Origin: Polytrichum commune
Lineage: Eukaryota; Streptophyta; Polytrichopsida; Polytrichales; Polytrichaceae
Length of the DNA stretch: 64,000 bases
Assembly (NCBI GenBank): GCA_950295325.1
Contig: OX485809.1
Span: forward strand, 28,844,144-28,908,143
Reading direction: 5' to 3'
Position numbers and translations under genes: made by a program. Shown piece by piece: positions 6,785-42,349 of this stretch. How positions within the stretch are numbered: the first letter of the stretch is position 1; every line of letters begins with the position of its first letter. The notes beneath the pieces were generated by a model. The model did not search any database. It worked only from the letters and a program-made list of their open reading frames with translations, and was not told the DNA's origin.

Positions 6785-7032
6785 GTGGTGGAGTCACACT
6801 TTGTTCAACATGTTCAAATTCCTGACATTTAATTGCTCATACTAGTACTGGTCTCCATTTCATCAAAGAGACTCAAAAACACCAAATATTTCCTAACCTG
6901 GAGGAAAATGACTGATACAAGTGCCCAATTTACACAAGTGCATAATTCACACACGACATTTCATGTAGATACAAGTGCCCAATTGAAAACAAAAGATATT
7001 TTAGTGGTTGAATGTTAATGTTTGACACAAAA

Positions 7033-11861: not shown

Positions 11862-13991
11862 TGTGAGCCCAAAAGGGTGCCCACATTTAGTCTTAGACCC
11901 TTGAAACGTTAGTTGATGCACTTTGAAGTAGCATGTCACTTCACAAAAATATAAAAAGAGTGAAATGTTAGTCTTAGAAGTACCATGTTGTAAGAGGCTA
12001 GGATGTGAGTTGTTATTGTGTTTTTACCTTCGGAAGGATTTGAGTGAATGAGGATAGGTAAGGAGAACTTGGATTGAGTAGTTAGTGAGTAGGCTAGTAC
12101 AAATGGATGGAGACAACCAAAGTGACTCAAGAGGCAAGTGCATTCGAATTGGGATGAATGGAGGATCACATGGAGCGCACAAGTGGACCACCTCATCATG
12201 GCCACTTAATGGGGAAGGCCCAAGGAAGAATGCAAGGTGGAGGATAAGCAAATTCTCAAAGCACCAATCAAATCACGAGTTAAGCATCGTGGTTTGAATT
12301 AAGTGGTGAGCGACGATTTGGGAAAGTAAGGGGAGAAAGTTATGGCGGCGGAAAGCGAAGGAGGCTAAGTTTGGGTTGAAGCATCCCAAGTTTGGTAAAG
12401 TGTGGTAGGTAGAAAGCCAAGGCTAGTTAAATGTTCGAATTAGGATCCTTGTTGATCATTTGAGGGAGGAAGGCTTAGAAGATAGGATTGGCGCCTACTA
12501 AGTAGGAGGAAATCTCAAGGGCTTATCGTGAGCCTTGAGGGTGCTCACCCCCTCAAGCTTACTATATAATCCCTCATTCTTCCCTCACTCATCCTCTCTT
12601 TCCTTTGTGCTCCAAGGCACCCCACGAGTTATAAGTGTGGGTGTGGGAAGCCATATTGGAGCACATGTGTGTGCTTAGTTTTTAGTTTGAGAGCCAAGGC
12701 TTGTTAGCCTTGAAGAGGGCTTGACCTCTTGGTAGAATTAGTGTTGACGTGAAGGATTTTAAAGTTAATTCATGATTCCAATTTGTGGTACTTAAAGTTC
12801 ATGTTTTGAATACACGTGGTTGCAAGTTCCATGTTTAAGAGTTGAGCACTTGATGTTGTGATGAGTGCAAAAATATACTTGTGTGGATTAGTTAGTCTTA
12901 GTGAAGTTAGGAAATTCTCTCTCCCCCTCTCCTCTCTAGGATTTTAGGATTTTAGGATTAGAGAAGAATTGTGTGATTAGAAAGGGGTTGTTAGTAGAAT
13001 TAGGGAAATTAGGTAGGAAGATTAGTTAAGGGCTTGAATAATTAGTGAGGTAGTTGGGGATTACAACTACAAAGTTGTGGGTTTATGAAGGAGCTGGGTT
13101 TGTTTAGTTAGAAAGTAAAGAGCTGGGTTTATGAAGGACCTGGGTTTGTTTAGTTAGAAGCTAAGGAGCTGGGTTCATGAAGGAGCTGGGTTTATGAAGG
13201 AGCTGGGTTTGTTTAGTTAGAAGCTAAGAAGCTGGGTTTATGAAGGAGCTAGGTTTATGTAATTAGAAAGTAAAGAGATGGGTTCATGAAGGAGCTTAGT
13301 AGATAGCCTACCTAATTAGCTCATAGACAAGTAGTTAGTTACATTATGCTAGTTAGTGTTATGGTGGCTTTCACAAGTAAATGTATTTGAGATTGACTAT
13401 AGAGAATAGTGTTTTTTTTAACACTTGCATCCTCTCTTTAAAAATAAACCACGTGCACAACTTAATGGAGAATGTGGAGCACTCTCGCGATGGCAAGACA
13501 AAGGAAGCAAAGACCAAAGGTGCGAGGGAGAGATTGACATAAATCACATAAGTATTTCTTAATACTTAAAGGCTTATGTACGGTATGGAGACACCAAGTG
13601 AGACCTCTTATAGTAGCGATACGGAATACACAAGTGATAGTTCAAGTGGTAGTATAGAGTCAACGGCACGGACTCCATTTAGGAGAGGGATATCCTTAAG
13701 GGCTTGTGTAGCTAAAGCGGCCGGATGGACGTTAGAAGCAAACAAAGACAAAATAGCATCCGAGCATAAGGAGGTTAAAATAACATAGTTAACTTGTGCA
13801 TTCTCCACATACGTATTGAAATTGTACATTGAGTTGTTAAAAGTGAAATTCCAGTTAAATCCAAGACCACTTGAAGGGTGAACCTTGCACTATGGACTCA
13901 TCCAAGTCCAAATCCAATACCGCGGAGGAATGTGAGCCCAAACCCACTACTCGGACCACGGACGCTTAAGGGTGGGGGGTTTGGCCTCACA
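11862..13991 (+). mobile_element. Solo LTR (2130 bp) inside the TNP2 exon
   Basis: It starts TGTGAGCC and ends GGCCTCACA, short inverted LTR termini. It is flanked on both sides by TACTG (11857-11861 and 13992-13996), a 5-bp target-site duplication. No protein domain of a retrotransposon lies between the ends, and only one LTR copy is present, so it is a solo LTR left by recombination. A promoter-like CTATATAAT with a pyrimidine-rich stretch after it lies near 12562. The family of the parent element cannot be told from the LTR alone. Identity with the copy at 1-179 argues for a young family. Confidence 0.92.
13085..13305. repeat. Tandem repeats within the solo LTR
   Basis: The words GGAGCTGGGTTTATGAA and GTTTAGTTAGAAGCTAA alternate five to six times with small changes. 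Such arrays are common in long plant LTRs. Confidence 0.8.
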
Positions 13992-16399
13992 TACTGGAAG
14001 GTTCGTTTATCTGAAACTCTGCTCTTTATGCACAACAAATACTCTAGTCTTAAAGATTGTCAAATAAACCAATTATGAGCTTGTAAATTATTTTAAGACG
14101 CATTATAGTCAAATGTTTAGTGTAGTCTATAGCATTGATTTGTTTTTAGACTAATTATGGTATATATGTATGGCGCAACATTTTAAATGATTGATCCAAC
14201 ATAATCCAATATAGCAGTATGAAGAAGGCTTGTATCCAATCTAAGTATGTAACATAATTGATAATTTATTTTGGTTTTTACAGGATCTTCTTATTCGTCA
14301 CACTTTGGACGTGATGCACTGCGAGAAAAATCTCGTTGAGCACTTAATGAACATTCTTTTTGGTGAAGAAGATACAATGGCTGTAAGGAGAGACATGGTT
14401 GCTATGAACATACGCTCAAATTTGTGGCCCATTCCCCTGGGGAATGGAGAACTAGAGCTACCACCTGCACCTTATGTGATGACCGCAGATGAACGACAAA
14501 CATTTGTGGGTATAATACAGGAGTTGAAGGCCCCCACTTCATACGCGAGTTCTTTGAAAAAAAGAATACACCCTGAGACTAACAAAATGAAGGGCTTAAA
14601 AGCCCATGATTATCACATTCTTATGCAACAGGTCCTACCTTTATGTGTTCGCACTATACTGCCGAAGGGACCAAGGCTTGCAATCATTCGCCTGAGTTGT
14701 GTATTTCAACGGATTTGTGCCAAAACCTTGGATCCAAGCAATATGAAAGAACTAAGAGAAGAGGTTGCAATGACATTGTGTATCCTTGAGAAAGAGTTTC
14801 CGCCTTCTTTGTTCAATGTAATGACACATCTGATGTACCACCTAGTAGAGGAGTTGGACCTATGTGGTCCTGTGCACACCAGATGGATGTACCCTATAGA
14901 AAGGTACATGAAGACATTGAAGAATTTCGTGCGAAATAGGGGAAGGCCGGAAGGGAGCATGGCTGAGGGGTACTCATTCGAAGAATCGCTCGGATTTTGT
15001 ACAGAGTACATAAGAGATCCCAAGAGCACAAAGACGCGAGTATGGGATGACCGTGAAGATCCCAAGATGTATGATGAAATGCCTGAAGGAGAGGGGCATG
15101 ACAGGCTTATGCCTGCTATCTTGAGGGATTGGGCACACTCGTTTGTCTTGAAAAATGCAGCCGCATTACAACCTTGGAAAAAGTAAGATTTCATTTTGTG
15201 TTTTCATTTTGGCATAGGTGGCCCATGTTGTATGGAAGATCGTATGTTGTATTTCATATTGCGTGTAGTGAATAATACACCCTATCATATATGTGATTTC
15301 TTACAATATTGCCAAAATCAAATGCCCTCGTGACTTTTATACCTAACTTTTTGATGGCAGGAGGTACGAAGACGCTGTGGAAGCTCAAGGCATAGCTCGA
15401 TTGCACTATCAGAATAGTCATAGGAGGAGGGGAGGGAGGGCAAGGTTGCAATATCCAGATGAGTTGAGGCCGTTGCCGCCTTATGAAAATTGGATATTAC
15501 CAGCCATTTCCAAAGCAATCAACGACGGAGAGAACATAGAAGAGGAGGTCATTCAATTGAGCATACCTCCTACCATGAAAGCTACTGCATACCGGTCTAT
15601 GTATGCATATGGAAATCACATCCGTGTGAAGAGTGCTGAGACCAATTTGGTTACCATGGATTCTGGAGTTGCAGCTGTATTTGGGACAACGTGTCGCTCA
15701 AGTGTAAATGACAGGAACCCCATTGAAGCAGAGGTTGAATATGTAGGCTATGTGGAGGAGATCTTGGAATTAAACTATGGTACCACGTGTGTGATAGTGT
15801 TGTTGTGCAATTGGGTGAGAGTCAATCATAGAGGAGCAGGGGCTACGATGAAACGTGATGAGTATGGGTTCACTTTGGTGAACTTCAATCATATGTTACC
15901 CATCTCTGAAGATTCTTTTGCATTTCCTATCCACGTTGAGCAAGTTTTTTTCTCAAATGATCTTGGCAATGAACCTGGATGGAAAGTGGTTCTGAAGAAC
16001 GAGCCTCGCAGTCGAAGAGTAGAATGTGCCAATGATAAAATGGTAGAGGTGCTTTGTCTGACCTTAGGGAATGATAGCAACTATTCAGGCTTGGCAGATC
16101 CCACACTAGATGCAGGTGATGTGGAGCATGATGATAGTGCAGATGATAATGATGAGGGGCAAGATATTAATGAGTTTGACTCAGAGGACAATTCAGATTA
16201 CCTTGGAATTTCATCTTCAGATGAAGAATGAATGTCATACTAGCTTGTGTATCTCATACGTACAAAGTAGTTATTACAAGGTGCACATAGCCATGCTTCT
16301 AATTCAATCTGTATTTGATATGCCCAAACTTTATGTAGGATCATGTGCCATGCATGCATACAAATTATTGAGTAAAAAAAACAACATATGCAATAGATA

Positions 16400-22895: not shown

Positions 22896-23426
22896 TGGGG
22901 CATTCCCACCTGACTTTAGTTAAGACCCAAAGTATTTCCTAAAAGCCGGGTAAAGCTCCCTCGGTTATAGCGGAGGCATCCGACTATCCCAATGCACCTA
23001 CAAGAACTTGCTCCGGAGATTTTCAAGTAGGTTTTAGTTAAGTAGCTTTCACACATGTTCATGGTTTTATCTACCAAGCAATGAATGTTGGGTAGTCTTT
23101 GTCCCATCCCCAAATGCCTTACTACTCACCTATCTTACCATCGGTTTTTGTTAATGAAGCTCCTTGTGCCCTCATAGCTAAGACTAAAAAGCAACCAATC
23201 ACAAGGGTGGGAGGTGACACTTTTAAAGTTCCTATATTCTTGCCTCATGTTTAGGTACCGATGGGAGGGTCAGTGGTTGAGGCTTGAAACCTCCACTTTT
23301 AAGCCATGCCACATCATTTGCCACCTAGGTTCGGCACTAAAAAGAGCCGTATGTGTGAACCCTAGATAACTAAAACCGCTTTTAGACTAAAACTACTTCT
23401 AACTAATGTCAGGTGGGAATGCCCCA
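22896..23426. mobile_element. PIF/Harbinger (Tourist-like) MITE, copy 1
   Basis: Perfect 19-bp inverted ends, TGGGGCATTCCCACCTGAC and its complement, flanked on both sides by TTA, the target duplication of PIF/Harbinger elements. It is 531 bp with no coding frame. Two diverged relatives lie in this window, at about 25290-25847 and, inverted and split, at 42013-42349 plus 50443-50576. This is the best preserved of the three. Confidence 0.88.
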
Positions 23427-25289: not shown

Positions 25290-25847
25290 AGGCCCTTCTC
25301 CACCCGGCGTACCAAATTAGCAAAGTTTTTCTGAAAAATTGAGTAATGGTCTCTTGGTTATGGTGAAGGCACCTTGGCTATTCTGGTACACCTACAAGAA
25401 CGTGCTCTAGAGATATTCGAGTAGGTATTAGTTAAGTAGTTAAATTCATTTATGTTCATTATTTTATCTACTAAGCAATGACATGTGGGATAGTTTTTGA
25501 AGCAAGGTCAAATGCCTTATCACTCATCTACTTTATCGTTGGTTTTTTTGTTAATGGAGCTCCTCACGCCCTTATAGCTAAAAGTAAGAGCAACTAATCA
25601 CAAGGGCCGGGTGCAACACTTTTAAAGGTCCTAAGTTCTTGCCTTATCTCTAGGTACCGATGGGAGGATCAGTGCTCAAGGCTTAAAACCTTTGTTTTTA
25701 AACCATGCCACGTCCTTTGCCAACTAGGCTCAAGACTAGATAGCATTGATGGTGTGAAGGCTGTGTTTTAAAATGAAATTTTAGGCCCAATGTGATTATG
25801 CTAAAGTCATGTGGGAAAGGGGCATTATTAACCTCATTTGCCAATTT
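25290..25847. mobile_element. PIF/Harbinger-like MITE, copy 2 (diverged)
   Basis: From about 25385 it follows copy 1 base for base with substitutions (CACCTACAAGAACGTGCTC, TTATCTACTAAGCAATGA, TAGGTACCGATGGGAGGATC). It ends in a decayed version of the terminal repeat (CATGTGGGAAAGGGGCAT). The ends are blurred, so it is older than copy 1. Confidence 0.75.
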
Positions 25848-25875
25848 GGTAATGGAGGGGAACAATATTAGAAAC

Positions 25876-26000
25876 GAGGGAAGCTATCTTATGAGCGATG
25901 AGCAGTGAGCGGTGAGTGGTGAGCAGTAACACATGAGCAATGAGCAGTAACATATGAGCAATGAGCAGTAACATATGAGCAATGAATCCAAATTTAGTAA
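25876..26000. repeat. Left terminal inverted repeat of the Mutator-like element
   Basis: It starts GAGGGAAGCTATCTTATGAG and runs into a tandem series of TGAGC(A/G)(A/G)TGAGCAGTAACAT units, three of them almost identical. The inner part is more repetitive than the right end. Confidence 0.75.
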
Positions 26001-26099
26001 AGACACACGGGTTTAGGGTTTACAACCAAAATTTTGACAAATTGATTGCATATTTTCAATTGTAAATTGCCAATATTTTAAATGAAACACAAGTGAAAG

Positions 26100-26355
26100 G
26101 GCCCTATTTCCATGGATCATTTAGAACACTTTCAATCCATTGCTGATTTTTATTATAATAATTAAAACCAATACATGTCATTTATTGACATCCTTATACA
26201 TGTAGCTACAACTAGCACTTGTACAACTACTCACATTCTACAACACCAGCAAATTCAAGTAGGTGCATAACCTCATTATACATATATGTCGGTGCCATAA
26301 TTGTGAGCCACTCAAACTGCTCACGGGTTGAATAAAGGCCCAGAATCTACAAAAG
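26100..26355 (-). pseudogene. Duplicate of the SWIM gene's last exon
   Basis: The minus strand reads APTYMYNEVMHLLEFAGVVE, then C, E and a stop, nearly the same as the end of the SWIM exon at 26803-27192 (APTYTYNEVMRLLELAGIIE). The untranslated sequence after the stop is duplicated too (TTTTTATTATAATAATT, CATGTCATTTATTGACAT at about 26150 and 26740). A short partial tandem duplication of the gene's 3' end explains it. The copies differ by about one base in seven, so the event is not recent. Confidence 0.7.
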
Positions 26356-26404
26356 AAAGAAAATTAGATATTAGAAATAGTGAATATGTAGGTAGCTACT
26401 AGGT

Positions 26405-26612
26405 TTTGAGACATCCGCCTGTGGATGTGAGTTGTGTAAGAGACTGGTATTAGGTCTGGATCAACCCGGGTTCGAATCCGGTTGGTTACATTGATTGGTG
26501 CTATCCCAAATTGAGCTAGTGATAAAGCAAGAATAATCTATAGGCGGATACCAAGAAGACGTTACTACGCGGATGTGCGTAGAATCTTCTTAATTATTTT
26601 TTATTTTTAGAA
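26405..26612 (+). mobile_element. tRNA-derived SINE-like element
   Basis: CCGCCTGTGGATGTGAGTTG resembles a tRNA-type A box region, and GGGTTCGAATCC (about 26469) is a textbook B box about 45 bases on. These are the two internal Pol III promoter elements. The unit ends in a T-rich tail (about 26600). It sits exactly between the two duplicated 3' ends of the SWIM gene. It cannot fold as a real tRNA: no acceptor stem closes and the downstream half is unrelated. Confidence 0.7.
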
Positions 26613-26802
26613 ACGTGTTATTATTTATCCGTGTGAATCAATCAAACCACACATGGTTGGGTCGCAGTCTAAATAAAAATGAAGTTACTGAATCATTTGA
26701 AATACTTTCAGTCCACTGCTAATTTTTATTATAATAATCCAAACCAAAACATGTCATTTATTGACATTCAAATATATGTTGCTTAATAGAACACTTGCAA
26801 TA

Positions 26803-27240
26803 CTATTCACATTCTATAATACCAGCAAGTTCAAGTAGTCGCATGACCTCATTATAGGTATATGTAGGTGCATGAATGAACTTGTCAATCTCGTAATTCA
26901 CCTTGCACAAAAATCTAAACACATAATAAAGATGTTTACAATACACCCATTTTCCTTTCTTTCCCAATGCATGAGAGGACATTTTCGTGAAATCTGGACA
27001 TGTGCAATGCGGGATATCGCCAATTGTGATATGGTAGGTGATATCCTGCTTGGAGACAATGTTGATTATCACTCCAAAGCCCGGATATGGAATGGCAGTG
27101 ACCCCAACCACATAGTAACCTTCCATGAGTCCGGCGCTCTCCCATTTGTTTTTGTGATCCGCCAGAGGTGCTGTTGGATTACTGTGATGCACATTTTTTG
27201 GCGTAGAACACGCAATTCTGGCTTGAGGTACATATTAGTG
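26803..27240 (-). CDS. SWIM zinc-finger C-terminal exon of the MULE transposase
   Basis: The open frame contains DIPHCTCPDF...KGKWVYCKHLYYVF, a C-x-C-x(n)-C-x-H SWIM finger of the kind found at the C terminus of Mutator-like transposases and FAR1/FHY3 relatives. It follows a beta-rich segment (GYYVVGVTAIPYPGFGVIIN) and ends in a helix with a stop at 26803. SWIM fingers bind DNA or mediate protein contacts. The exon lies 2.2 kb downstream of the catalytic part of the same-strand transposase gene. Joining to it is likely but not proven, because the intervening 27.3-29.5 kb has no recognised coding sequence. The 5' edge of the exon is uncertain. Confidence 0.75.
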
Positions 27241-27299
27241 GACAAATTACGCTCAAGACTAGAAAAGTAGTGAAGTAGTAGTGAATTAGTCACTTAGAA

Positions 27300-29480
27300 A
27301 AGGAAAGTAGCTTAGGAGATGTGAATATGTGTGACTGAGCAAAATAGATCCCATCAGACAATGAACATGTGACTATTAGGATGTACATTTCAGAATCCAA
27401 GTTACCATCAGTCACAACTTTTGGATAGGATGAGTAGGGGAAGAAGGAAGAAGACGGAGAGCATAATTTTCTAGCTTCCTCTCGTGAAGAGAGTATTCGT
27501 TTTCAAAGTTTTCCTTGTCTTCTGAACTTAACCGGATGTGAAATCCGCAATACTGTTGTAAATCGAATTTTGAAATATATTAAGTGGCATACTCAAACTA
27601 TGTCCTATCTTCCGAAATTGAGTTTGAATGGAGAATGTTAATCTGTTGAGCACCCTCGTGAAGAGAGTCAGTGGAATTGAGATGTTTTGACTGATTGTTG
27701 TGAATGAGTGTGAAATCCGTAGTTGTCTCGTGAATTCTGTGTGGAGATAAAAGAAGCTGAGCCTCAAATTCCCATCTTTTGATAAATGTGATAGCACCTG
27801 TTGTAATCATGTGTACTGTGAGTGATGAAGAATATGATTCGGGAGAGTGAATCTCATGCAGTCATAAGAGATTTATAAATGGAGTAAAGTTCTAAGTAAG
27901 TGAAGAGTAAATTGTGTAGAAGTGGAATGAGATATTCTCAGGAAGAAATAACTTCTAATTGTCGTGAAGACAGAATGAAGCAAAAATGTCTTTGATAGTA
28001 TTTTAAGGTTCCAATTCTTGAAGAATGAAACCTGTCGATCAAGTGGTCGGGTGAGAAACCTGAGAACTCCCTGTGGAATCCATAGAAGTCTGGAAGTACC
28101 AAAGTCTCACTGAAGTGATAATCTTCTACGGATACTTGGATTGAGTCGAGCCCGTCTCTAAAAGTTGAATTATCTGGAACTGTGGTGAAGGTTTCGGAAG
28201 TTTATGTCATGCCCTGGTTGGCAAATATGAATGGCAATGATAAATTTGAGGATGGTATTCCGAGTGCAAGTCCCCCTAAGGAATCCAATGAACTGAATCT
28301 GGATTCGTTAACAAACTTTGTGTAAGTGTCTTGAGTATGCTTGCAAAAGGAAGTGCTTGATTACTTTGACGTGAGAAGGTGCTCAAATGGCACAGAATAA
28401 CTTTCATACTTGTAAGAAATCTCCACCAGAAACTTGAGAGACAAATATGAGTAAGTCTGGAATGACTTACTTTAATAAAGTATCATTGTAATTATGGAAG
28501 CTCCCCGAGGAGTCAATTGGGAATTACTGATTCAATGAATAAACTCAAGCGATTTATTTATCTTTCCGCGAGCAGGAAAGACATCGACGAAGATCAAGTA
28601 GAGATACCTGGTGAGAATCGGTGAGAAGAACTCCAGAAGAGTTCTATTTAGCGAAGGATTTCTAATTAAATTGGTCGCAGAAGCTGTGCTAGCTAGCAGA
28701 CAAATCTCCTTAAAGATTCACAAGAACCCTTGAGAAAAGGGGAGAAAAAACTCTCTCGAGAAAATCTGTAAACTGTGAGATGAGATGTCAGATCTCGTGA
28801 AGACAGAAATCTATCTCCTCGGTGGGTTGCGTGCACTATGTCGGAATCTGTACCTGAACCGACTTGCGCACGAGAAAGAGTGAAGAATTGCGGAAGGAAG
28901 AGGAAAACAACCAGCCAGTGAAAAGGAGTTCGACGCGAGAAGGGAGCAGCGAAAGCAAGGTGCCTTTATCCCATATCGGTTGGACGAACCCGTAGAGGTA
29001 AGTATATAACCTATCCTCTCTCCTTCGCTGGTGTGACTAGACGATTCTCTATGACACTAAGACTGTTACTCGCTACTGGTTACTAGTTGCTTGAGACTGT
29101 TACTAGACGTTTCTCTGGACACTGGTGACTAGACTGTTACTTGGAACTGGGAACTAGACTGTGAATTTTCTGACCCGATTCGATTCGGACGTTTGTCGCT
29201 TAGTTCCCGTTACTGGTTACTAGACTTTTAGAAAAATTCCTAAGTACAAAATATGAGAGTTAATTTTATATAGTCTCACCATGTCATTATAGTATAATTG
29301 TGAGGTGAGAAAATGACAGTATAAGTCCAATGAACTCTTATTCTTAATGATAATATTGTGACAAATACACTTCATAAGTCTTTAGAACTGTCAACTGACC
29401 TTATTGTGACAAACTCAAACTACATCTGACACTTATTTAGTCTTCCCTGGGTGTTTTTTAAGATTAAACCCCGGTTGAAA
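27300..29480. other. Non-coding 2.2-kb interval with a USE-TATA pair
   Basis: No reading frame looks like protein. It may be a large intron of the transposase gene. It contains ATCCCATATCG (28968-28978), close to the plant snRNA upstream sequence element RTCCCACATCG, and TATATAA (29003-29009), 24 bases downstream. Degenerate repeats of GACTGTTACT / GGTTACTAGACT follow to about 29230. The same USE-like word is also common in plant LTRs, so a decayed LTR is an alternative. Confidence 0.35.
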
Positions 29481-29483
29481 AAG

Positions 29484-32400
29484 CTAACTACAATTACGAC
29501 GCACTGTATTCCCAAATCTAAATGTAGGGTGGGCGTCTGGGTTTGGTGGCATAGAAAAATGCGAGCGAAGAATGGGAAAAGTTGCGATTGTTGAAAGCCT
29601 ACGACGAGGAGACAATGCCTCCCTTTGCTGTAGTTGAAATCCAGCATCTTCAAGTGCCAAAACCTCCTCTCTCGATAGATTGGTACCTATCTTCACTGGC
29701 CACGTGTTGGGTACTGTAGGCCAATCCAACACATATTTATTCTTACTACCACTCACACAACGTTTGATGTCATCAGGACAAAACCAAAATTCATACTCCA
29801 TATTGTTGGGAGAGCGAAATTCCTTCCTGAGCCCTTTGTATATTGGAGCAGGTGTGCCATGTTTCCCAGTCCTGACTTTGGCATTGCACATAGTCCCTAT
29901 AATGGCCTACAGTGCCCAACAACGTTTGGTTGAGTTGGGTGGCAATCTTGCAATGTGCCACTTAGAAGCAAGACAATCAGTCTCTAACACGGATGTAGTA
30001 TAAGCCACACCATTAATTGCAGAACTCAACGATTCCTCTATGCATTGACGAGTTGCTCGGGTGTTGGGACGAGGAATGGAATAGTTCACTTTGTTGGGTC
30101 GATAAGAGTCACAATCAACACCCGGTGGTAGGTTGAGTTTGCGTTTGGTGGAACCAAAGAGCTCTGACCCTTCCAATGCACAATGTCTCGTGTTGACATC
30201 TTCTACCCCTGGATAAGACTTCATGGCATCGGCCAACATTTTTGGATCTCCACACCTGGCAGCCGCTTTGAGTTTCAAGGATGCCGAATCAGGACCTTTA
30301 CCATCAGACCCCCCTTTCAACCATGTCCGGTAATTTGCAATTTGCATGAAGCCACAAATCATGTCGTCCACTGTAGCTTCATATAAACAAGTCATCTTGT
30401 TGCCGGACTGTTGGAGCCATTTGTTATGTACAGTCTCTGCAAGGTTGCATGTTGGCATTTCCGCACGTTCTTCTATTGTCATATCCTATGAACAACATAC
30501 AAATATGAGGATAAGAAAAATAGAAGATATATATGACAGTGGAAGAAAAATGAATGACATTGAAGAATAAAATTTGATATGTACTTACAAATAGCATATG
30601 ACCACCCCATTGTCTGTAACGAAAGTGCCAAAAACCCAACCACTCTGAAAGGCCAAGGATGCCTTCTTCTGAGGCAGCTCCGGATGACAGCCACCAAGAA
30701 CGAATTACATGATACTTAGTCTCAGCGTCGTCCATCGTTTTTGCGTCTTTGTAATCCTTGCATATTTGCTTGTGTTGAAACTGCAAGGATGGTTTGATAT
30801 ACTTTTGGGTCACCTTATCCAAGCTCGCAGACCAATGGAAAAGACATGTACGCTCACGTGCAACCATGGGTAGACTTGGATCACCATCCCCGTAAATCGC
30901 CCTCACCGCATTCCAATTAGCTTGAGCACTATCAGCCATAAACCCTTTGAAGTTTACGTTTGGTACACAATTTTTTGCCATGACAGTATTCAAATTTTCC
31001 CAAAAGAAAATTTATGCTGCACCATCTTCAGATTGCATGTCACAACACGCAATAGTCAACACTTTACAGTATCGACTGTCGTACACATGGCAAGCCATGG
31101 TCGTCCAGTCCTTCAAACGTTTGACATGGTCAAACATAATCCATGAATTCTCCATGTCCCCACCGACTTGCATCCTCTTCACAAGCTCCACACCACTACC
31201 TGGAAGGTCTACAGACATCTTGAAAACAAACACTTTGTCCTTTGACTGCCCTGGAAACCGACTACCATGGACGAACTTGAAAGCAGAGTGGTTTTTGAGT
31301 GCCATAATACTATCCATAGTTCCCATTCCACTACGCAAAAAACGCTTTGATCCGGATACAAAGTTACGACAATTCGGAGACGCAAGAGTGCTGAATTTTT
31401 CCATGACGACCTCTAGGGATGAACCAACCAAGTGATGGCCTTTGACATTTGCATGAGATTTGAGAAGGTAATCGGCCAATAATTGTTTGCTTGCTGCCAT
31501 AACTATGGCTGAATTTTTAGCTGTGGGTGTTTTCAATACTTCATTTGCAACGCACTGGTATGCCATGTCCAATGATTCACGGCATGTGCCATTGGCCACA
31601 GGGTGATCATGTACACCAATATGAATACAACCCTGGACATTCCAACAGATGTGGAGTGGATGTATATGATTCGAGCATGACATAAAGCAATGCACACAGG
31701 TGTGGAACGACATACCTTACACTCGACAATGGACCTAGTAGGAGGAACATTATCCACAGCAAATGGGAGAGGAGTTGAACCGGCCCATTCAGTATTGTTC
31801 CGGAGGCCCCATTGCGATTCATGTAATCACAGTAGTCATTAGGACATTGGAGATGACTAGCACATGTAGAGCGCCGGAAGGACAATCCAAAATCATTTTG
31901 GATATTGGTGGTTTTGGTGGTGCACCAAGGGTGACCGTCGCACATCTTGTCTATGCCGTCCATTGAGCGGCCATACGTACTTGGAGCTTTAAGTGCCACA
32001 GGAGATAAGAAAAACAAAACATCACCATTAAAAGAAGATGGTAAGTACTTGACATCATGAACATCTATACTATCAAAATCAATGGATGCGAGATCTGACT
32101 TTGATCTTTTTCTAGACTTTGTAAGCTTCAAAGCATCAACGATAGTCAATCCTATAAATGAAGGTGAAGGGTGTAGTGGAGGACGTTGAGAAGGTGAGAG
32201 CTGGGGAACCAAATTCTTGTACATAGGACCGCATGGAGATTTGGCTACATATATAGGAAGCTGTGAAGAAGTGAAATGAAGACTTTTAAATGGAAACGGC
32301 GATGTGTTTGAAAGATCAACAGATGCAGAAATGTCATCTTCCGAATCTGATAGCACAAACACACGGTCATCAGTGGGTTCAAATTTAACATGTGCGATAT

Positions 32401-32722
32401 AGGGAATTTGAACGGTGGATGTACCGGATTCGTTTGTCAAAATGACAGTTGAAGCTTGCATCTGAGATTCAGAAAGACCTATTACCCTAAATGAACCAGG
32501 TCCTAAGATCCACATAAAACCAACCTCGGTTCTGTTTTTTTGAACCAAAACCGTCTCATACACCTCTCTATCTGCAGAATACATCTCCTGCTCTAAATAC
32601 ATGGTTCATATCTGGAGGTTGAATCTCAGACTAAGCAAATCCTCTGAGACATTGACATGACCATTATCTTGAAGTGGCAAAATTAAGGGAACAAAAGATC
32701 CGTGAGCTCTAATGGTAGCCAT
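29484..32722 (-). pseudogene. Mutator-like (MULE) transposase, catalytic part
   Basis: The frame starts at ATG 32722 (MATIRAHGSFVPL). An N-terminal region of low complexity is followed by a cysteine/histidine-rich zinc-binding segment (CDGHPWC...CPNDYC and ECKVCRSTPVC), then the catalytic core. The three acidic residues expected of a MULE DDE transposase are visible: VYDS (about 31079), FMADSAQANW (about 30932) and NLAETVHNKW (about 30436). Exon 1 ends at TTT|GTAAGT (30589) and exon 2 begins GAT ATG at 30485, in phase. Three in-frame stops (about 32607, 31013, 29908) and two frame changes (near 31.80 and 31.63 kb) break it. The C terminus at 29484 is basic (PRRRLS). It is divergent from the methyltransferase gene. 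Confidence 0.8.
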
Positions 32723-33361
32723 GGAGAAGAAGGAATAAATGAACAACACATGACAATAATCTTAGATCAACATCGCTTTTGTATTGAATGATGGAGAATA
32801 TAATAATGGATGTAAATTAAAAGAGGTGATACCATAGCATCCAATAATACAAAAGGAGACAGATCATAATAGTAGACAAAGAATATTTGCAAGGAAGGCA
32901 TAGAATCCTAAACCAAATCCTAAAAAATATCTCCTTTAGAAACTAAGCCATAGGAAACTTGAACCCACAAAGGAGTTGTGTAATATAAGATTATCACATG
33001 GGAGAAATGCGGGCACGGATATCATGGAGAAAACGGCGTCAAATAATAAACAAGTTGGCAGAGTTTTAAAATACGACTGTGTAGGCTGGATGTAGATGCA
33101 GGAACAATTAAAATTGGCCAGCAAAGTAAATGATTGGCCATTATAAATAGAACAAAGTCAATGTGGTAGGTTGGGATATCAGAGAAATTTGGCGGATATA
33201 ATAAAAATAGAAGCAGAGTGAAAGACGCGTTAAAACAACTTGAACATTGGACGCCAATTGCAACACTGATGATCGTAATGTACGTCAGGCTTAAGTGAGC
33301 TCTAAACACTAAACAAATGTATGAAAGTGGAGTGGTAGAAGATATATCATAGACAACAATA
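32723..33361. promoter_or_regulatory. Shared divergent promoter region of the Mutator-like element
   Basis: This 640-bp gap separates the start codons of the transposase and the candidate first exon of the ParB-methyltransferase gene. No box is distinctive enough to name. The arrangement predicts co-regulation of the two genes; that is inference from geometry. Confidence 0.35.
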
Positions 33362-36300
33362 ATGGTGGAACATGTAGAGAGAACACTAGTGAGGCGGAAG
33401 AGAAGGCATAGGAAGGCGGAGGACGATGAAGGTGCAAAGAGCAAAGAGCATGCAGACGATGGTATTTCGGAGACGGAAATGAAGACAAGTTCACAAAACA
33501 GAACAAACAAAAGGTAAGTCAACTTCTGAAATTGTTTTATTTGAAATTATTTTACTATATATTCTTTAACAAGATGTTGTTTGTTTATCTTGTTCGAAAT
33601 ATTCATATGGTTGATTGTATAATTTTTATTTGTATTATATTATGTATGTATTTAGTTGGATTATGATGGGTATTAACACATCTATGTTGTCATGTGCTAG
33701 TAATGTGACGTTAGCGATTTTTTTTTTAAGAACCAAAATTTCTAGCAAGTCCATCACTTTCACGAAGCCTCCCTATCTATGCTGAGACCGTGGTTTCTAT
33801 TTGGAGTTCATAAATTTAGTGGCCGAATCATGATTAACATTCATGAAATGCATGTTGTTGAGAGTAACAATGTAGTGCAGAGGGTAGCTGAATGCGTTTA
33901 AATGTAAAAGAACGTCATTTATTCATGTTAACAGTGGTTACTCCAGTGAAGGGTAGGAAAAAAAATAGGCAAAAAAGTAGCTTTCGTTTTTCAAGTAAGA
34001 GACAATTGTCAAGGGCTAGAATGAATAGACGTATTCCTCGAATGAAAGGAGTGGACCTATCAGGTACAACAAGAAATTTGACGTACGAAGATATTATGGC
34101 ATGCGAAATGATAACGGAAGATGTCTTCGAACACCAAACTCCTACATGTGAAGCTCAACCACATATCGTCTCTGAATGCAATGAAGAAGATGAAGATGAG
34201 GAAGATTATGATAAAGGCATCGACGAAGAGCAAGCCATACAATACAAAAAAAAAGAACAATCTTCTGAGGCGGAGTTGGAGGTAAGTTGTACGAACGAAA
34301 TGATAAGAGAAGAAATTTAAAATGAAAATAAATTTAGAGGTATATAATGTATACTATATTGTACACACCGAAAATACGATTCCAATGGTATATAGCATGA
34401 ACAAAATAATTTTGTTTTGCATGTTTTAGAGCCAAAAAACAATTAGAACATCTTAGATTCTTCTAAAATCTTCAAAACATGAAGATTTTACGCAGGAAAT
34501 CTAACCATATTAGTTTTAGTAGACTTTGACGATTTATGTAAAATTAATATTATCTCCAATAATTCTGAAAAAAAAAATGGACTGAATGGCAAGGCTTTAA
34601 TCTATGCACTAAATTTTTTGTGAAAATAAATTAGGATATTTCAAAAAGTTCTAGCAAAGATTCCATAGACTGAAATCTACCAAATTTTTACTTGTTTTTT
34701 AGAGTCCGACTTACCCTAATCTCTTGAAGCCATACTCTTCGTAATGTTTTCAGACATCCTCTTTCGAAGTGCGGCGGCAACAACATACGCAAGAAGCAAG
34801 AGCGTGCACCATGGAGGATGCAGATGCGGGTACAAGTTCCAGGCGGCGACGTGGGCGTATAGACAAAACGAGCAAGAGCGACAAAGAAGCTGCAACTCCG
34901 GAAAACAACTCAAATGAAGGTGTGTTTCTCTTCCAAATGGGTAGCCGTTAACGGCCACCCTTTTTATGATGCCCACTTCTGTGTTGTAGTCTGTTTCATC
35001 TAAAACTGTGGCCGTTAACGGCCACCCTTTGTTGCATCTTATATTTCTGAGTATATGTGTTTCTTTCTTCAAATATACACACATTTCCTTAAAATTTTTG
35101 TCCTTAAAATTTCAGACTCTTCTCCATATGTGTTTTTTTATTCATGTATGCACTCATTTGCTTCATTTTGTTTTCCTCCAACGAGGGTGGCCGTCTAACG
35201 GCCACCCTTATTCATATTTCACATTTTTTTTCATAAGTGTTTCTTTCTACATGTATACACCCATTTCTCTCATTTTCTGTCCTTCAACAAGGGTGGCCGT
35301 TAACGGCCACCTTTATTCACATTTCGGATTTTTGTTCATAAGGGTTTCTTTCTACATGTATACACCCATTTCTCTCATTTTCTGTCCTTCAATAAGGGTG
35401 GCCGCTAACGGCCATCCTTATTCACATTTCAAGTTTTTTTTCATAAGGGTTTCTTTCTACATGTATACACCCATTTCTCTCATTTTTTGTCCTTCAACAA
35501 GGGTGGCCGTTCCTTATTCATATTTCAAATTTTGTTTCTACATGTATACATGCATATGTTTATGCATTCATTTCCTTCATTTTTTTTTTCCAAGAAGAGT
35601 GGCCGTTAATGGCCACCCTTATTCAAAATTCAGACTTTTTGGGAATATGTGATTTTCTCTCTTTATGTATACTCTCACTTTCCTTAATGTTTTTTCATTT
35701 TGTTTTAGTTTGCATATGTGATTTCTTTCATGTGTGTATATATTTTTTGATTTATTTTTGTTTTTCATATGGGTGATATGTTTTGTGCTTTAGATTTGGA
35801 AGTTGTACCTCTTTCTGAAGATCAATTGAAGATTCAATTACATGCATTTTTTAAGAAAGAAACTGTCAACACATCTTCCCGTCTTGAACGGTTGAGGTAT
35901 CAACCAAGGGCAAAATCAAAACTCAACATTCCACTATGTCGAATGATTGTATTACATGTTGTAAGGCCTTTTTTTAAAAATGACGTTATGAACCTGGCTG
36001 CACATGTTGTTGTTTGTGGTTATATAGAGGGCAATGGGGTTTTTTATGTAGCCTTGGAAAACAATGAGGGGAAAACAATAGATGTTACCGATAGTATCAT
36101 TGAATCTTGGACTGAGAATTGGGTGCGGGCTAATGATGCCTTTTAAAAAATATTGCAAGCTGATGAAGACCTCAAAGTTTTCTCTGGCAAAATGTTCATG
36201 GTGTGGGACGGAAATCACCGTTTGCAAGCATGGTTGCCCATTATTAATCGAGATCACACACATGATCCGGTTTGGCATTATGTTGTTGAAAGTATTATTT

Positions 36301-39300
36301 TGGACGTCAAGGGAGATATTGCAAACATGTTGGCAGCTTTACATGAAGTCAATTGGTAATTACTTCATTCTTCTCTTTTTATTTGTTCGGTTCATTTGGG
36401 TTATTTTTTAGTTATTTTTTATTGTATTTTTTTTTTATTTGGCTTATCATTGGTTGTTTTGTTTTGACAGGAAGAACCAAAAATCCCATGTTTGTACCAA
36501 TCTTGTTCATAAGCTTTTCCACATTCAAAGCATTGCTGGGCAACCACTTTCATATTTTGAGAAACTTATTTCCAAAGAAGATCTTACTGCCGCTGATGCC
36601 AAACAAAAATCCAAACATAGGACTTGGTTTACTTTGACTGTTGAGGCTCTTAATGGATTTCTATACCAGGTTATTTTTTTCTGAAGTATTAGTTTTTTTC
36701 GATTTTTGTTTTCTTGTATATTTTTCTTGGTTTCTTTTTATTTGGATTTCTATAACTATATTTTCTATTGCATCTTATTTTTGTTGTATGTGATTATTCA
36801 TACTCGTATATGTTTTTTCCTTGGTGTAGCAAGAGTTGGGAGATGCTGCTGCTACTGCTCAAAGAAAATTTTATGAGAAATATCCTGATCCTGCACATTG
36901 GACTTCAAGTGCAGTGGATGAATTTGTTTCCAAAGTTGTTGAGAAGGTGAGATTGACTTCTCATTCGGAATTGAAGAAACAACTTCCCATTGCGGATCCT
37001 AAACATTCTCCTATGTTCTTAGAGCAGGTGAAGTCTCATTATGAAACTCATGATGAGAACCCTGAGATGACTCAAGAAAAACTTTGGATGTTAGCAACTT
37101 CGGCAATGGACACATCTATGAAGATTAAGTGGCTTGAGAGGTAGAACAGTTCACCTGCTCTTCGTGAGGCTCTCAAGTTTCCGAAACCAAAATTCAATGA
37201 TATAGAGTTTCCTAAGTGGCTTCATAAAGCTACTTGGTGGGCTCATGTGATAATTTTTGTCCTTCTATTATGTTTGGTTCATTTATTTTTGGTCTATGTT
37301 TTAATTTATTTTTAATATTTTTTCAATTCTTTAATTCTTCTAATCTTTATTTTGATTTGGCAGTTGGCTATTGAGACCGAGAAGCTCTTTGATGCTACTG
37401 TGGCTGATATGCATGTGTCCATCAACTACCTTCCAGATGGTATGGATCCTTTGCCCACTATTTTTTATTATGTGGAGGCAATGCGCATATCATTGTGGGA
37501 TACTGCATTTTTTCGTGAATTCGGTGTGGATAAGGGAGTTCACAAAATCATAACATTGACAAGCAACTCAATTTTTATCGAGCCATGCGAAGGGTGTTTT
37601 ATAGGTACTTCAAATATGTCTTATTTCCTGCGAAAGCCATTTCCAAATCTCCCATTTTTTTGGCTAATTATTTGGATATCGAAAGTGAAGAATGCATGTT
37701 CACAGAGGGGATCATAAAATCTTGGGATCATGTGCATTTTGAAAAATGTGGGTGGTATTTGGATTGTCCTCTTAAATCACCTCCCACTTTTGATATTGCC
37801 CTTCGAGATTCCATTCAACCCGCCCTCAAGGGTACAACTAAAATTGTTCCCTCTATAATGGATGAGGATGCAACCAAGATGCCAAAAAAAAGACCAATCA
37901 TCCTCATTCATGATAGTGATGGGGATGCTCCAATTCAAAGCAGTCTCAACAACCTTGTAGTTACTGAACCTTCTTCTTCAAATCTAGAGGCAACGTTTCA
38001 TACTTCAAAGCGGCAAAAAACAACCCCTTCTCCTACCTTGGATATGCCTCCCAAGCTTAGAGGTATGATGAATATCTTGCCTCCTTTACCTGCAAATCAT
38101 ACATCTTCGGATTTAATCTTGAATGATTTTTTTGTGAGGATTATCGAAGATAAGAAGCAAACATGTATATTTTGTGCACCATATGACGACATTGTGGCTT
38201 TTCTATCGAAGGTGAGTTCATTTTATTTTACAGTTTTTACTTTATTCAAGTTTTATAAAGTTTCACTCATATTTTGTCACGTTATTTCATTTTTTACTTT
38301 TAATTGTCGTCTTTATTCATGAATTGTAATATTTATATTTTATCTTTGTAGGTTGGTGAAGATAGACAATTTTTTTTTGATGGCCAATTGCAAAAGAAAC
38401 CTGCTGTGGACCTCATTATTGCGGATTACCCATATGGTCTTCGGGTTCCAGATGTCTCGGATCCGCCATCTCAAATTCCCCCTTGGAATGCCAACATTCC
38501 AAGTTTTTTCAACATATTGATGGCATTTGCTCTTACCTATCTTCATGATGATGGAGCATTCCTTTTGTTTTATCCTGACAGTTCTGCCGTGAAGAGAGAA
38601 GTGGCAGGATTCTTCAAGAACTATAAGTTCAAAATCAAGGATGAGTGGACTATCGTTAATTTCTTGCACTTGGCAAATCCTATGAATCCGTCCAAAAATG
38701 TAAGTAGCAATTATGACATTTCATTTTGATTGGTTCATATTTGAATTTGTTTTTATGTGTTGTATATTTTTTAATTTCAATTTTATATTGACTTTCAGAC
38801 TTTGAAGTTCAAGGCTTTGTTATTGGTTCGATCATTTTCAATTCCCATTGCGAGGCAACCTCAAGAACTTCTGATCACCATGCATCCTTCAATTTCTGAG
38901 GTCGATTTAGCCACAAATGACGTTCTCTTCAACTCTATTACTATGGAAACTCAATTATATAGACAAAGAGATGGCAAGCCATGGAGGGGTGCAAAGGAGA
39001 AGTCTGAAGTTTTAATGGAGTTATTTGTTCATGGTTTGAGTCCTGTAGGCGGTATTGTGGCAGACATGACTGTTTCTACAGGTATTGTATATTACAGTAT
39101 CCAATTATTGGTTCATATGTTTTTAATTCATACTTCAATGTTCGTATTTTCCTAATTAATGTTCTGCTTCATCCAGGTTCTTCTATTAGAGCGGTTCATT
39201 CATCCAATCGTCATATTCTAGCATTAGAAAGTGATGCCGAACTCTTTGATGAGGTACTAAAGCCTCTTCAAACACCTACAAATGATACCTCATGCAATGG

Positions 39301-39694
39301 TATGGACTTTGATGATGATACTCCAATAGAAGACGCCGCACTTCTTAACTTATGTGAGTAAGTTTTTTCATTGTTTTTTTCTCAACAACTTCAATTGCAA
39401 ATTCTAGATTTTGTATTCTAATTTGTTGTTACATATTCTAATACATGGTTTGTTGTTTGTAGTTGGATGAATCCATCGCCGATACAAATCTCGTCATTTT
39501 ATCGGCACCGTGGATTATTGAAAAGCCCCTCTCTTAGTCCTCAGAGCCTCCCTGTGTATGCTGAGGCTTTAGCTGAAGCTTATGCTAATGCTTCATCTAC
39601 TTCATCTTCAATTTCACCTTCACCTCGTAGATATTACGATACTAGAGTATGTGCTTATTTTGAACTCAGTGCATCTGAGTCCGACGATATTTAA
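33362..39694 (+). pseudogene. ParB-like domain fused to beta-class DNA (N6-A/N4-C) methyltransferase-like domain
   Basis: Exons by frame-consistent GT/AG sites: 33362-33513 (candidate basic first exon), about 33892-34281, 34754-34919, 35794-36355, 36471-36669, 36830-37246, 37364-38211, 38352-38699, 38799-39081, 39177-39357, 39463-39694. The 35794 exon has WDGNHRLQAW, the ParB/sulfiredoxin-fold signature. Exon 38352 has VDLIIADYPYG, the D-P-P-Y catalytic motif IV with Y at the second position. Exons 38799-39357 have KSEVLMELF..GLSPVGGIVADMTVSTGSS and ALESD, matching motif X and the SAM-binding motif I of N4/N6 methylases. The order IV before I is the beta class. The C terminus is Ser-rich. ParB-plus-methylase pairings are familiar in phages and bacteria; finding one in a spliced plant-transposon gene is unexpected. 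Breaks: in-frame stops at 36144 and 37142, and one frame change near 37.55 kb. The start is uncertain. Confidence 0.78.
34940..35620. repeat. About 105-bp tandem repeats each centred on a palindrome, in an intron
   Basis: Units start at about 35186, 35292, 35397, 35502 and 35598 (105-106 bp apart, last one shorter), with two outlying copies at 34940 and 35007. The core is the perfect 20-bp palindrome GGTGGCCGTTAACGGCCACC at 35292-35311. Other copies differ by one to three bases, and one is a half site. Between the palindromes runs a T-rich TTTCTACATGTATACACCC segment. The array lies in the intron (34920-35793) just before the ParB-domain exon. Confidence 0.88.
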
Positions 39695-40319
39695 GTTTGT
39701 ATTCATGATTTGATTTTTGATTTTTGAAATTTGATTTCCAAGAACTTCAACAATTTTAATCTACTACCCGATTTATATCTACAATCCACTTTTGTTGTTC
39801 TTTATGTTTTGGACTTCGTAAATGTCACCCTCATGATGGTGTTATGATGTATTCAAATTTTACATTGATGTGTATTATAGTGAGACATTCTAACATGCTA
39901 CACTTGTTTTCAACATGAGTTTGCTTACACATTGTCTCCAATTACATTATTATTATCTCAACAGTTGAATGTATATTAGTTCATTTTTAGTACAAAATTG
40001 TTATAGCAACATTCTCATTTGTTGTTCATTTGGACTATAGACCCTTACATGTAATTCCACAATCATAGGCCCCCAACGGATTTTCAAACCATAACCGGGA
40101 ATAAATTGAAGGCTCACATGTTCACGCTCGCATGCTCACATACTAGCAACCCCGAGTCGTGTACATATTGGTCTTTTTCATTGCTCACTACTTGCAATCT
40201 AGCATTCATATTATTTGTCCTCTCCAATCTTCTTATTATTGAACCCTAAACAATTATTTCTTTAGGCCACGGTTATAGGATACTCGGGGTCCTATTACCA
40301 AATATTTTGTTTTCTTCAC

Positions 40320-40386
40320 CGCTCACAAATTACCGCTCATCGCTCACCGCTCACTGCTCACCGCTCACAAGATAGCACTCCCCTCC
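40320..40386. repeat. Right terminal inverted repeat of the Mutator-like element
   Basis: Read on the minus strand it begins GGAGGGGAGTGCTATCTTGT and continues in TGAGCGGTGAGCAG units, the mirror of the left end. Bases 39695-40319, between the methyltransferase stop and this repeat, hold no gene. Confidence 0.75.
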
Positions 40387-40649
40387 TAGAAACTTGAGTC
40401 CTTCCAAGTTCAATCCAACTTTTGGGGCTAGGGATTCATGGTGTCTACATAAACTCATTAAATGTATAGGTGAAAACTCTATGAATTATAGCATGTAAGA
40501 CTAATTTTAAAACAATGACTAGGAAAATAGCATTCGAGACCCTACATTAGTGGAGTTGAGTGTGGTTGGAATGAATCAACCCTTAATATTATAGGGGAGT
40601 TACTTTTAACGGAACCCTTTCATCCACGTTGCACGAGCCCACATAGGTG

Positions 40650-42012: not shown

Positions 42013-42349
42013 TGCTCCCTTCTCACTTGACTTTAGCTAAAGTTTGTTCTAAGAACATGGGCTTCACACCATTGATGTTATCCAGTCATGAGCCTAGTTG
42101 ATGAAGGACGTGGCATGGTTCAAAAATGGAAGTTGTCAATCTTAAGCACCCACCCTCCCAATGGTATCTAGAGATGAGGCAAGAGTGCATGACCTTAAAA
42201 ATGTCGCTTTCAACGCTTGTGATTGGTGGCTTGTAGTTCTAACTATGAGGGCACAAGGAGCTTCATGAACAAAAACCAGTGCTAAGATAGATGAGTGATA
42301 AGACATTTGACCTTACTTCAAAAACTATCCAACATCTCATTGCTCAGTA
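42013..42349 (-). mobile_element. PIF/Harbinger-like MITE, copy 3, first part
   Basis: The minus strand follows copy 1 of this family (GATAGTTTTTGAAGTAAGGTC, TTATCACTCATCTATCTTAG, AGCTCCTTGTGCCCTCATAG) and stops abruptly at 42349. The rest of the element resumes at 50443, on the far side of the Helentron. Confidence 0.82.

Follow-up and report, generated by a model that had tools for sequence, protein, structure and literature searches.

ParB-like proteins joined to methyltransferases are already known as transposon cargo in algae. The closest described case is Sola1-1_Ec32 of Ectocarpus, a giant DNA transposon. Opposite its transposase it encodes a protein of 1104 aa that combines a ParB-like domain with an N4C/N6A methyltransferase domain and has been proposed to bind and mark the element itself; relatives of this protein in red and green algae are reported in the same paper, which cites Iyer 2011 and Petroll 2025 (PMC12477816; statements here and below on this and the other known systems refer to the accessible parts of the reports). 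Here, we analyse a 64,000-nucleotide stretch of Polytrichum commune DNA (contig OX485809.1, positions 28,844,144 to 28,908,143, the whole of which we call the window), following up a preliminary reading made from its letters alone (the sequence-only reading). At positions 25876-40383 it holds one element with matching inverted ends, a transposase gene and a divergent gene for a protein with a ParB-like part and a methyltransferase fold. The element resembles Sola1-1_Ec32 in combining these two parts in a gene opposite the transposase, a likeness drawn from the published description. Whereas the Ectocarpus element is a Sola1 transposon, the ends and 10-bp target-site duplication found here are Mutator-like, and the palindrome arrays, module exchange and loss of the catalytic motif described below are not mentioned for Sola1-1_Ec32 in the accessible text of its report (PMC12477816).

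The nearest precedent for such a mechanism is VANC of the Mutator-like VANDAL elements in Arabidopsis. Its motifs are repeated in tandem within VANC21 and VANB21 introns and upstream of VANA21, and they have been proposed to coevolve with the protein (PMC5735166, PMC10398659). Here, too, an element-encoded protein is accompanied by tandem motifs in introns or upstream noncoding DNA, and related proteins have switched motifs (PMC5735166, PMC10398659). The VANC motifs measure 8-9 bp, whereas those described here are palindromes of 18-36 bp, and entire modules have been replaced; the portions accessible to us mention no ParB-like or methyltransferase-fold part in VANC, and this comparison, too, is by description only. 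The same two-domain combination is found on mobile elements in the ParB-N6_N4 methyltransferase fusions of phages and prophages (PMC12704722), but those are bacterial or phage proteins, whereas here the catalytic motif is degenerate and tblastn of the methyltransferase part gave no match in phage records. VirB of Shigella, a ParB-family transcriptional anti-silencer that works from specific sites, is a conceptual parallel only. VirB is bacterial, acts against H-NS and is not known to have a methyltransferase part.

Against the accessible reports, the cargo as such is known, and what appears to be new is the pairing of protein and site, the exchange of modules and the Mutator-like carrier. A literature search that excluded most subscription papers gave no report that we recognised of a ParB-methyltransferase cargo in a Mutator-like element, nor of paired palindromes or module exchange; the main text of a survey of Mutator-like elements does not contain the word 'methyltransferase' (PMC6446971).

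A module exchanged together with its palindromes

The window copy is dead, as both of its genes are broken: the methyltransferase-like gene has two in-frame stops (36144 and 37142) and its frame breaks near 37550, while in the transposase gene there are stops at 31012 and 29907 and the frame breaks near 31650. Other copies are plentiful. The core of the element's ends, GCTATCTTRTGAGCG, has 579 exact occurrences (285 + 294) in the 408-Mb host genome, compared to 0 for a reversed-pattern control. Among the first 100 places listed, most cores pair up on contig C1, chiefly 0.5-0.7 kb, 6-7 kb or 10-14 kb apart, with some pairs longer and some cores single. The sequence-only reading had asked whether the two genes travel together in other copies, and they do: the listed part of C1 has 13 core pairs of 10-14 kb, the first ten of which we read (c1-c10), and both genes are present in all ten of these full-length copies, c3 being without part of the middle region. 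We also read two copies of the window's own type, d1 (C1) and d3 (C3), over a stretch that starts with the last transposase exon and extends past the right end, and two elements of about 6.5 kb (s1 and s2, from eight such pairs noted on C1). The latter are deletion derivatives of the window type, without part of the transposase and without the methyltransferase part, that have kept ends, duplications and palindromes; three of the eight pairs contain an exact window-type palindrome among the sites listed. The methyltransferase-like gene is thus regular cargo of full-length copies, as proposed, whereas shorter derivatives exist without the methyltransferase part.

The listed part of C1 also has 12 pairs of the 0.5-0.7 kb size. 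One 0.6-kb element with the same end core was read (locus L001, 1480-2140); it has GTGAGCG-type heptamers, but its outermost bases are unlike those of the long copies, which may place it in a different family.

Comparison of the window copy with c1-c10 delimits a block that has been replaced within the family:

33522-40204, forward strand: exchanged module, comprising the palindrome array and the ParB-methyltransferase-like gene; no DNA similarity detected to c1-c10
34937-35620, within the module, no strand: intronic array of AAGGGTGGCCGTTAACGGCCACCCTT, with five copies within 4 mismatches, one with an inserted base and one half site

At the DNA level (same-strand pieces of at least 80 bp, E 1e-10), the window copy is mostly 88-95% identical to c1-c10 up to 32897 (83% in one c3 stretch) and then 72-83% identical to 33521 at most (33417 in c5 and c10); nothing was detected from 33522 to 40204, and similarity resumes at 40205, at the right end. 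The transposase proteins of the window and the ten copies are mostly 91-96% identical (71% in a damaged c7 stretch, 89% in c4), compared to 24-49% for the ParB-methyltransferase proteins. The two module types are each coherent: c1 is roughly 91-98% identical to the other nine copies through the gene region in the alignments listed, and d1 and d3 match the window module at 93-95% in DNA and mostly 83-97% in the protein exons (64-80% in the frame-broken ParB exon of d1). Mean transposase p-distance is 5.8% between module types and 4.9% within the ten-copy type, and an unrooted transposase tree has no deep split between types, with the three window-type copies grouping with c5 and c10 (support 0.997). 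The right-hand block, at 33522-40204, has therefore been exchanged as a module between elements with near-identical transposases, gene and palindromes moving together.

The gene is not tied to this transposon either. At least three further clades of ParB-methyltransferase-like genes occur in the genome in many copies, 42-70% identical in the exon searched, and the block is replaced wholesale within the family, so the earlier view of the gene as the transposon's own is not borne out in that form. Many genes of the further clades have open frames (loci L037, L038 and L039). One of these clades, k3, may sit in a DUF7869 transposon: a DUF7869 match lies beside one k3 gene (E 1.7e-36), but two other k3 copies have none at the corresponding position. 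We take DUF7869 to be possibly Sola-like.

Each module type carries its own palindrome, in arrays that sit in the gene's own intron or between the two divergent genes. Copies in the window array are spaced 67-180 bp apart (about 105 bp in the middle), and two of them share little beyond the palindrome with the rest of the array (identity 0.85-0.88 in the palindrome, 0.30-0.62 in the flanks). Elements of the ten-copy type each have 8-22 copies of AAACCCTGTGCGTTAACGCACAGGGTTT, and AAGGGTGGCCGTTAACGGCCACCCTT is absent from all ten. These two palindromes and a third type share the centre CGTTAACG and differ in their arms. Allowing 4 mismatches, the window palindrome occurs in 5/5 window-type elements and 0/10 others, and the ten-copy palindrome in 10/10 ten-copy elements and 0/5 of the window type; palindrome type equals module type without exception in the 15 elements read. 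An element-encoded protein thus appears to be paired with its own tandem motif in noncoding DNA, the arrangement known for VANC.

Because d1, d3, s1 and s2 had been picked by means of the window palindrome, a genome-wide comparison is the fairer test. A protein search with the window methyltransferase exon, which made no use of palindromes, gave 1077 candidates, of which 150 were scored; the window-type palindrome has 332 sites with at most one mismatch, 50 of which, all exact, were listed and used. After leaving out 17 gene hits on contigs or at positions beyond the palindrome list, 133 were compared. Among the sites listed, a window-type palindrome lies within 8 kb of 13 of the 20 window-type gene hits, compared to 0 of 113 hits in three other clades (0/17, 0/51 and 0/45; Fisher p 2e-13, relatedness ignored). 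The third palindrome, GGTGCCGTTAACGGCACC, was found in the k3 clade and has 259 exact sites (control 0), 50 of them listed. The listed sites form five loci, each within 8 kb of a k3 gene, and within the listed range they are near 5/6 k3 hits compared to 0/4 others (Fisher p 0.048); at one locus, k3 palindromes stand at several separate places. The ten-copy palindrome has 941 sites with at most one mismatch, and of 50 listed (exact, all on C1), 39 are inside an end-core pair, which for 33 of these sites spans no more than 28 kb. The other 11, all at C1:4875629-4879276, are outside core pairs, with the nearest listed core about 9-13 kb away. Perfect palindromes of at least 18 bp number 2-12 per element in 13 elements, compared to shuffle means of at most 0.25 and a maximum of 1.

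A second palindrome family, GTTTGGGTCGGTCGACCCAAAC, occurs in 8/10 elements of the ten-copy type (type B) and in none of c5, c10 and the window-type elements; in c1 it forms 32-bp arrays at L010 1510-1887 and L009 2556-2739, located within the transposase gene as well as upstream of the ParB-like exon. A k4 locus (L039, 6480-6650) has GAAAGAGGCCTCGGATCCGAGGCCTCTTTC with its 26-bp core a second time, near a fragment (6902-7173) with pieces about 90% identical to the window transposase.

A methyltransferase fold with a degenerate catalytic motif

The gene within the module reads as follows, all on the forward strand:

33892-34281: candidate 5' exon, open in the window; 88% identical in d3 and 85% (part 69%) in d1, with one stop in each
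34754-34918: candidate second 5' exon; 89-93% identical in d1 and d3, no stops
35793-36356: ParB-like exon with the box WDGNHRLQAW, interrupted by the stop at 36144
36830-37141: exon of the middle region; 92-97% identical in d1 and d3
37546-38211: exon of the middle region after the frame break
38352-38699: methyltransferase-fold exon 1 with motif IV, DYPY (DYPD in d1 and d3); matches PF01555 jointly with the next exons
38799-39083: methyltransferase-fold exon 2 with motif I, VADMTVSTG; profile matches
39179-39358: methyltransferase-fold exon 3; profile matches
39500-39691: candidate last exon; 95-98% identical in d1 and d3, one stop in d1

Profile comparison gives good support for the methyltransferase fold. 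The window copy matches Pfam N6_N4_Mtase (PF01555) over positions 1-218 of 221 with E 5.5e-4 and 20.4 bits (cut-off 26.7), as does a ten-type copy (20.4 bits) and, less well, k2 (13.1); k3 reaches 25.5 bits and k4 passes with 27.6 bits (E 3.4e-6), the best stretch in both being the C-terminal part. In the PDB, a family profile finds CcrM over the whole domain (E 0.005) and DpnA over the C-terminal part (E 6e-6), and the PHROGs match of the methyltransferase part is weak (2e-4). The beta-class N6/N4 methyltransferase-like domain is therefore on firmer ground than the sequence-only reading had put it, with k4 above the Pfam cut-off and profile matches to DpnA and CcrM. Searching the PDB with the single window methyltransferase sequence gave no match, as did NCBIfam, and Rfam gave nothing at gathering score. 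Scans of IMG/VR with the methyltransferase part, the ParB part and the transposase found no relatives.

As in CcrM and DpnA, motif IV precedes motif I, and CcrM aligns over the whole domain and DpnA over its C-terminal part; unlike in these enzymes, DPPY is replaced, and motif I is TxSTG-like where theirs is FxGxG. In the CcrM alignment, DPPY lines up with DYPD. Motif IV reads DYPY in the window, DYPD in d1 and d3, QFPD in 9/10 type-B copies and QFLD in c5, and elsewhere EYPD (three k2 and four k3 copies), AYPD (one k3) and DIPE (one k4). The aromatic fourth residue of the consensus [DNS]PP[YFW] is thus present in 1/22 copies, the decayed window copy, which also is without the first P; in the other 21, from five clades, it is D or E, and 18/22 copies begin the motif with Q, E or A. 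Motif I reads TVSTG in the window, TASTG in d1, TASTS in d3, TAGTG in k3 and TASTG in k4; seven of the ten copies have TCSTG and one has TCSTE, c3 and c6 falling outside the pattern. The degenerate motif IV predicts a loss of catalysis and makes methylation doubtful. Of the claim that the element carries its own DNA methyltransferase, the fold is what survives, the window's DYPY being peculiar to that one copy; an argument that catalysis is plausible because DYPY is nearly DPPY was dropped, since d1 and d3 have DYPD.

The ParB-like call rests on the motif WDGNHRxxAW. Its GNHR, with the Box II arginine that is conserved in the ParB/CTPase fold (PMC12704722), is invariant in six aligned copies, and the pattern is present in 9/10 type-B copies, not in c6. 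A 'ParB-like partition protein' match in PHROGs (E 0.23) falls outside the ParB-like exon, and an AlphaFold model of the window ParB exon alone from a single sequence is unusable (predicted local distance difference test, pLDDT, 34).

What the pairing may mean

The explanation that we prefer, with a probability of about 0.48, is that the window holds a dead copy of a Mutator-like family whose exchangeable accessory module is a VANC-like self-recognition system built on an unrelated protein. The module would be one gene plus palindrome arrays in its intron or between the divergent genes. Its protein, with a ParB-like N-terminal part and, at its C terminus, a methyltransferase fold whose catalytic motif is degenerate, is predicted to bind its cognate palindromes, perhaps as ParB binds parS and by reading the outer arms around the shared CGTTAACG centre, and binding would amount to recognition of the element's own DNA. 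Once bound, it might act as a regulator or anti-silencer, by analogy with VANC in VANDAL, and an element that swapped its module could acquire a new recognition specificity and evade host small RNAs or competing relatives. The consequence of binding may be anti-silencing, autoregulation or help in transposition. That the transposase itself reads the palindromes is unlikely, since the two types differ in their palindromes but hardly in their transposase; the GTGAGCG heptamers of the terminal inverted repeats, common to both types, are better candidates for its sites. The earlier suggestion of a protein acting on the DNA of its own element gains new support from palindromes that co-segregate with the module, although methylation as its means is doubtful. 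We would go further only tentatively, to the possibility of a repurposed, catalytically dead ParB-methyltransferase that serves as a self-recognition factor, each version reading its own palindrome and identity being changed by module swap, much as in bacterial restriction-modification or partition systems.

Several results weigh against this explanation. The k3 pairing test is small, 7 of the 20 window-type hits have no palindrome nearby (four are truncated, and exact sites only were compared), two of five k3-group copies have one a partial site and the other none in the stretch read, and the three k2 copies read have none of the three palindromes (0/3). Two observations that favour the explanation, the array kept by both deletion derivatives and the higher conservation of the palindrome columns (0.89 compared to 0.52 and 0.58 in the flanks over 45 units; 0.88 compared to 0.53 and 0.54 over 145 units), have to be set beside these, although the conservation is inflated because sites were picked by resemblance (at most 6 mismatches). 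The pairing could also be linkage alone, as gene and palindromes lie in the same exchanged block. The ParB-like part has no ParB-type Pfam match, its PDB profile matches are at chance level (E 0.09 or worse), and profile-profile comparison with four ParBs gives a probability of 0.1 with only the GxxR box aligned, so that of the domain proposed from the letters the WDGNHRxxAW motif and its invariant GNHR stand and profile support is missing. Pooled ratios of nonsynonymous to synonymous substitution rates (dN/dS) in the ten copies speak for the explanation, at 0.25 for the ParB part, 0.31 for the middle region and 0.31 for methyltransferase exon 1, but these figures pool non-independent pairs and leave out methyltransferase exon 2; the three window-type copies give no clear signal (ParB 0.52, middle 0.36, exon 2 1.72, exon 3 0.47, exon 1 undefined).

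Linkage is the heart of one alternative, namely that the arrays are ordinary intron minisatellites that follow the gene merely through the shared block. They are indeed tandem and homogenised, gene and array are linked, and some related genes have no array. We nevertheless hold this unlikely, because three modules with diverged coding sequence have different palindromes around the same centre, two palindrome copies in the window array have little else in common with the rest of it, k3 palindromes occur at separate places of one locus, and long perfect palindromes are far in excess of shuffled sequence. Quite unlikely, in our estimate, is an active self-marking methyltransferase that binds the palindromes and places N6-methyladenine or N4-methylcytosine there, protecting the element or countering silencing. 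The confirmed fold, the partly retained motif I region (TAGTG in k3) and the purifying selection on methyltransferase exon 1 in the ten copies speak for it, and N4mC or N6mA has been predicted for the similar Ectocarpus protein (PMC12477816); it has to contend with a motif that lines up with the DPPY of CcrM and has lost its aromatic residue to D or E, and mostly its first position as well, across five clades.

A protein that binds the arrays to assemble or regulate the transposase complex, without acting on silencing, would account for cargo kept in all ten full-length copies read and for arrays kept in two deletion derivatives with target duplications. MURB and the TnpA protein of Spm are the comparison here. 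We consider this explanation improbable. Against it, elements of 0.5-0.7 kb with the same end core exist, and the one that was read (L001) has no perfect palindrome of at least 14 bp. Movement of that element by this transposase is an assumption only, however, and because its outermost bases are different it is no longer taken as a case of the transposase working in the absence of palindromes. We give hardly any credence to plasmid-style partition, in which the ParB-like part would load on the palindromes and help an extrachromosomal copy to persist or segregate. The ParB-like box and the palindromic arrays resemble parS clusters. Proteins with the ParB-CTPase fold are common on mobile elements (PMC12704722), but the ParB assignment here is weak and no ParA-like gene was noticed among the reading frames, no search aimed at ParA having been made.

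If the palindromes are binding sites, the VANC-like self-recognition that we favour would be a second, independent invention of the VANC strategy, made with a bacterial-type protein. One genome would then contain several protein-site pairs matched by nature, with sites in the hundreds, and would lend itself to comparative study of self-recognition, silencing escape and specificity change; the recurrence of ParB-methyltransferase proteins in transposons of distant eukaryotes might be accounted for in the same way. A 'methyltransferase' annotation in such elements need not mean DNA methylation.

The Mutator-like carrier and its surroundings

The ends of the element and its transposase gene comprise the following features:

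25866-25875, no strand: left target-site duplication TATTAGAAAC, 10 bp
25876-25943, forward strand: left terminal inverted repeat with GTGAGC(G/A) heptamers, from the alignment and the genome-wide core counts
26806-27123, reverse strand: C-terminal exon of the transposase, SWIM-like CxC...CxH; dN/dS 0.16 over 13 copies
27183-29492, no strand: nested insertion of 2.3 kb, like a long terminal repeat (LTR) element by eye, with GTACA repeated at its edges; in 0/14 other copies (c1-c10, d1, d3, s1, s2)
29910-30482, reverse strand: transposase exon after the core, ahead of the stop at 29907; mostly 87-98% identical in c1-c10, d1 and d3, lower in s1 and s2
30589-31635, reverse strand: transposase core (ADSAQANW ... 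CLFHW), with the stop at 31012
31802-32602, reverse strand: N-terminal exon of the transposase; 82-92% identical in c1-c10, d1 and d3
40316-40383, reverse strand: right terminal inverted repeat, from the alignment and the duplication analysis
40384-40393, no strand: right target-site duplication TCCTAGAAAC, from the duplication analysis

The inverted ends proposed at 42/47 positions are borne out by BLAST (47 bp at 89.4%, that is, 42/47), and their local alignment scores 41, compared to a maximum of 20 in 2000 random pairs drawn from the window. The terminal inverted repeats are about 68 bp long, 82% identical over 61 bp and 89% over 47 bp. The 7-bp duplication proposed earlier gives way to one of 10 bp, from the reading of 12 other copies bounded by these repeats (ten of 10.5-13.6 kb and two of about 6.5 kb): nine are perfect (10/10), c8 and s2 agree at 9/10 and c9 at 2/10, compared to a maximum of 7/10 in mismatched pairs (n=156). 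The window pair agrees at 8/10, barely above this control, so the argument for 10 bp rests on the other copies. With this duplication the element ends at 40383: a single element is real, as had been read, but it is 3 bp shorter than the 25876-40386 first assigned. Mutator-like elements have target-site duplications of 8-11 bp (PMC6446971), and both the 10-bp duplication and the terminal inverted repeats agree with membership of that group. A larger element extending beyond these ends was rejected, as the flanking inverted repeats belong to a dispersed repeat of about 400 bp that occurs three times in the window (22928-23332, 25321-25784 and 42037-42349), one copy stopping about 90 bp from the element's left end.

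The transposase core has no Pfam match to MULE (Mutator-like element) or any other transposase, in the window copy or in a cleaner one, although a CxxH following a conserved D is visible by eye. SWIM matches stay below the curated cut-off (E 0.18 and 0.086 in the window, 0.019 in c2), which only an edited query passed; a SWIM or other zinc finger at the C terminus is common among Mutator-like elements but not universal. Of the MULE transposase with SWIM finger described from the letters, the Cys/His pattern CxC...CxH can be seen, with profile support weaker than that description implies. A KDZ/Zisupton assignment was discarded, there being no Pfam KDZ or CxC match. Pooled dN/dS of the transposase is 0.16-0.43 (13 copies). 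Its 3' end is duplicated (26113-26295 and 26689-26871, 576 bp apart) with a tRNA-like box, CCGGGTTCGAATCCGG, in between; box and repeat are also found in c1, c9 and c10 and so predate the spread of these copies.

Elsewhere in the window, a forward-strand reading frame with a SET domain (9623-10225, Pfam E 1.6e-9) lies upstream of the remains of a CACTA-like transposase (DUF4218 at 14245-15186, E 1.3e-38), and the two are possibly another transposon carrying a chromatin gene. Two 179-bp inverted arms (1-179 and 11862-12040), 100% identical and 11.7 kb apart, form a young inverted pair, and a perfect palindrome of 92 bp lies in an AT-rich stretch at 62403-62494.

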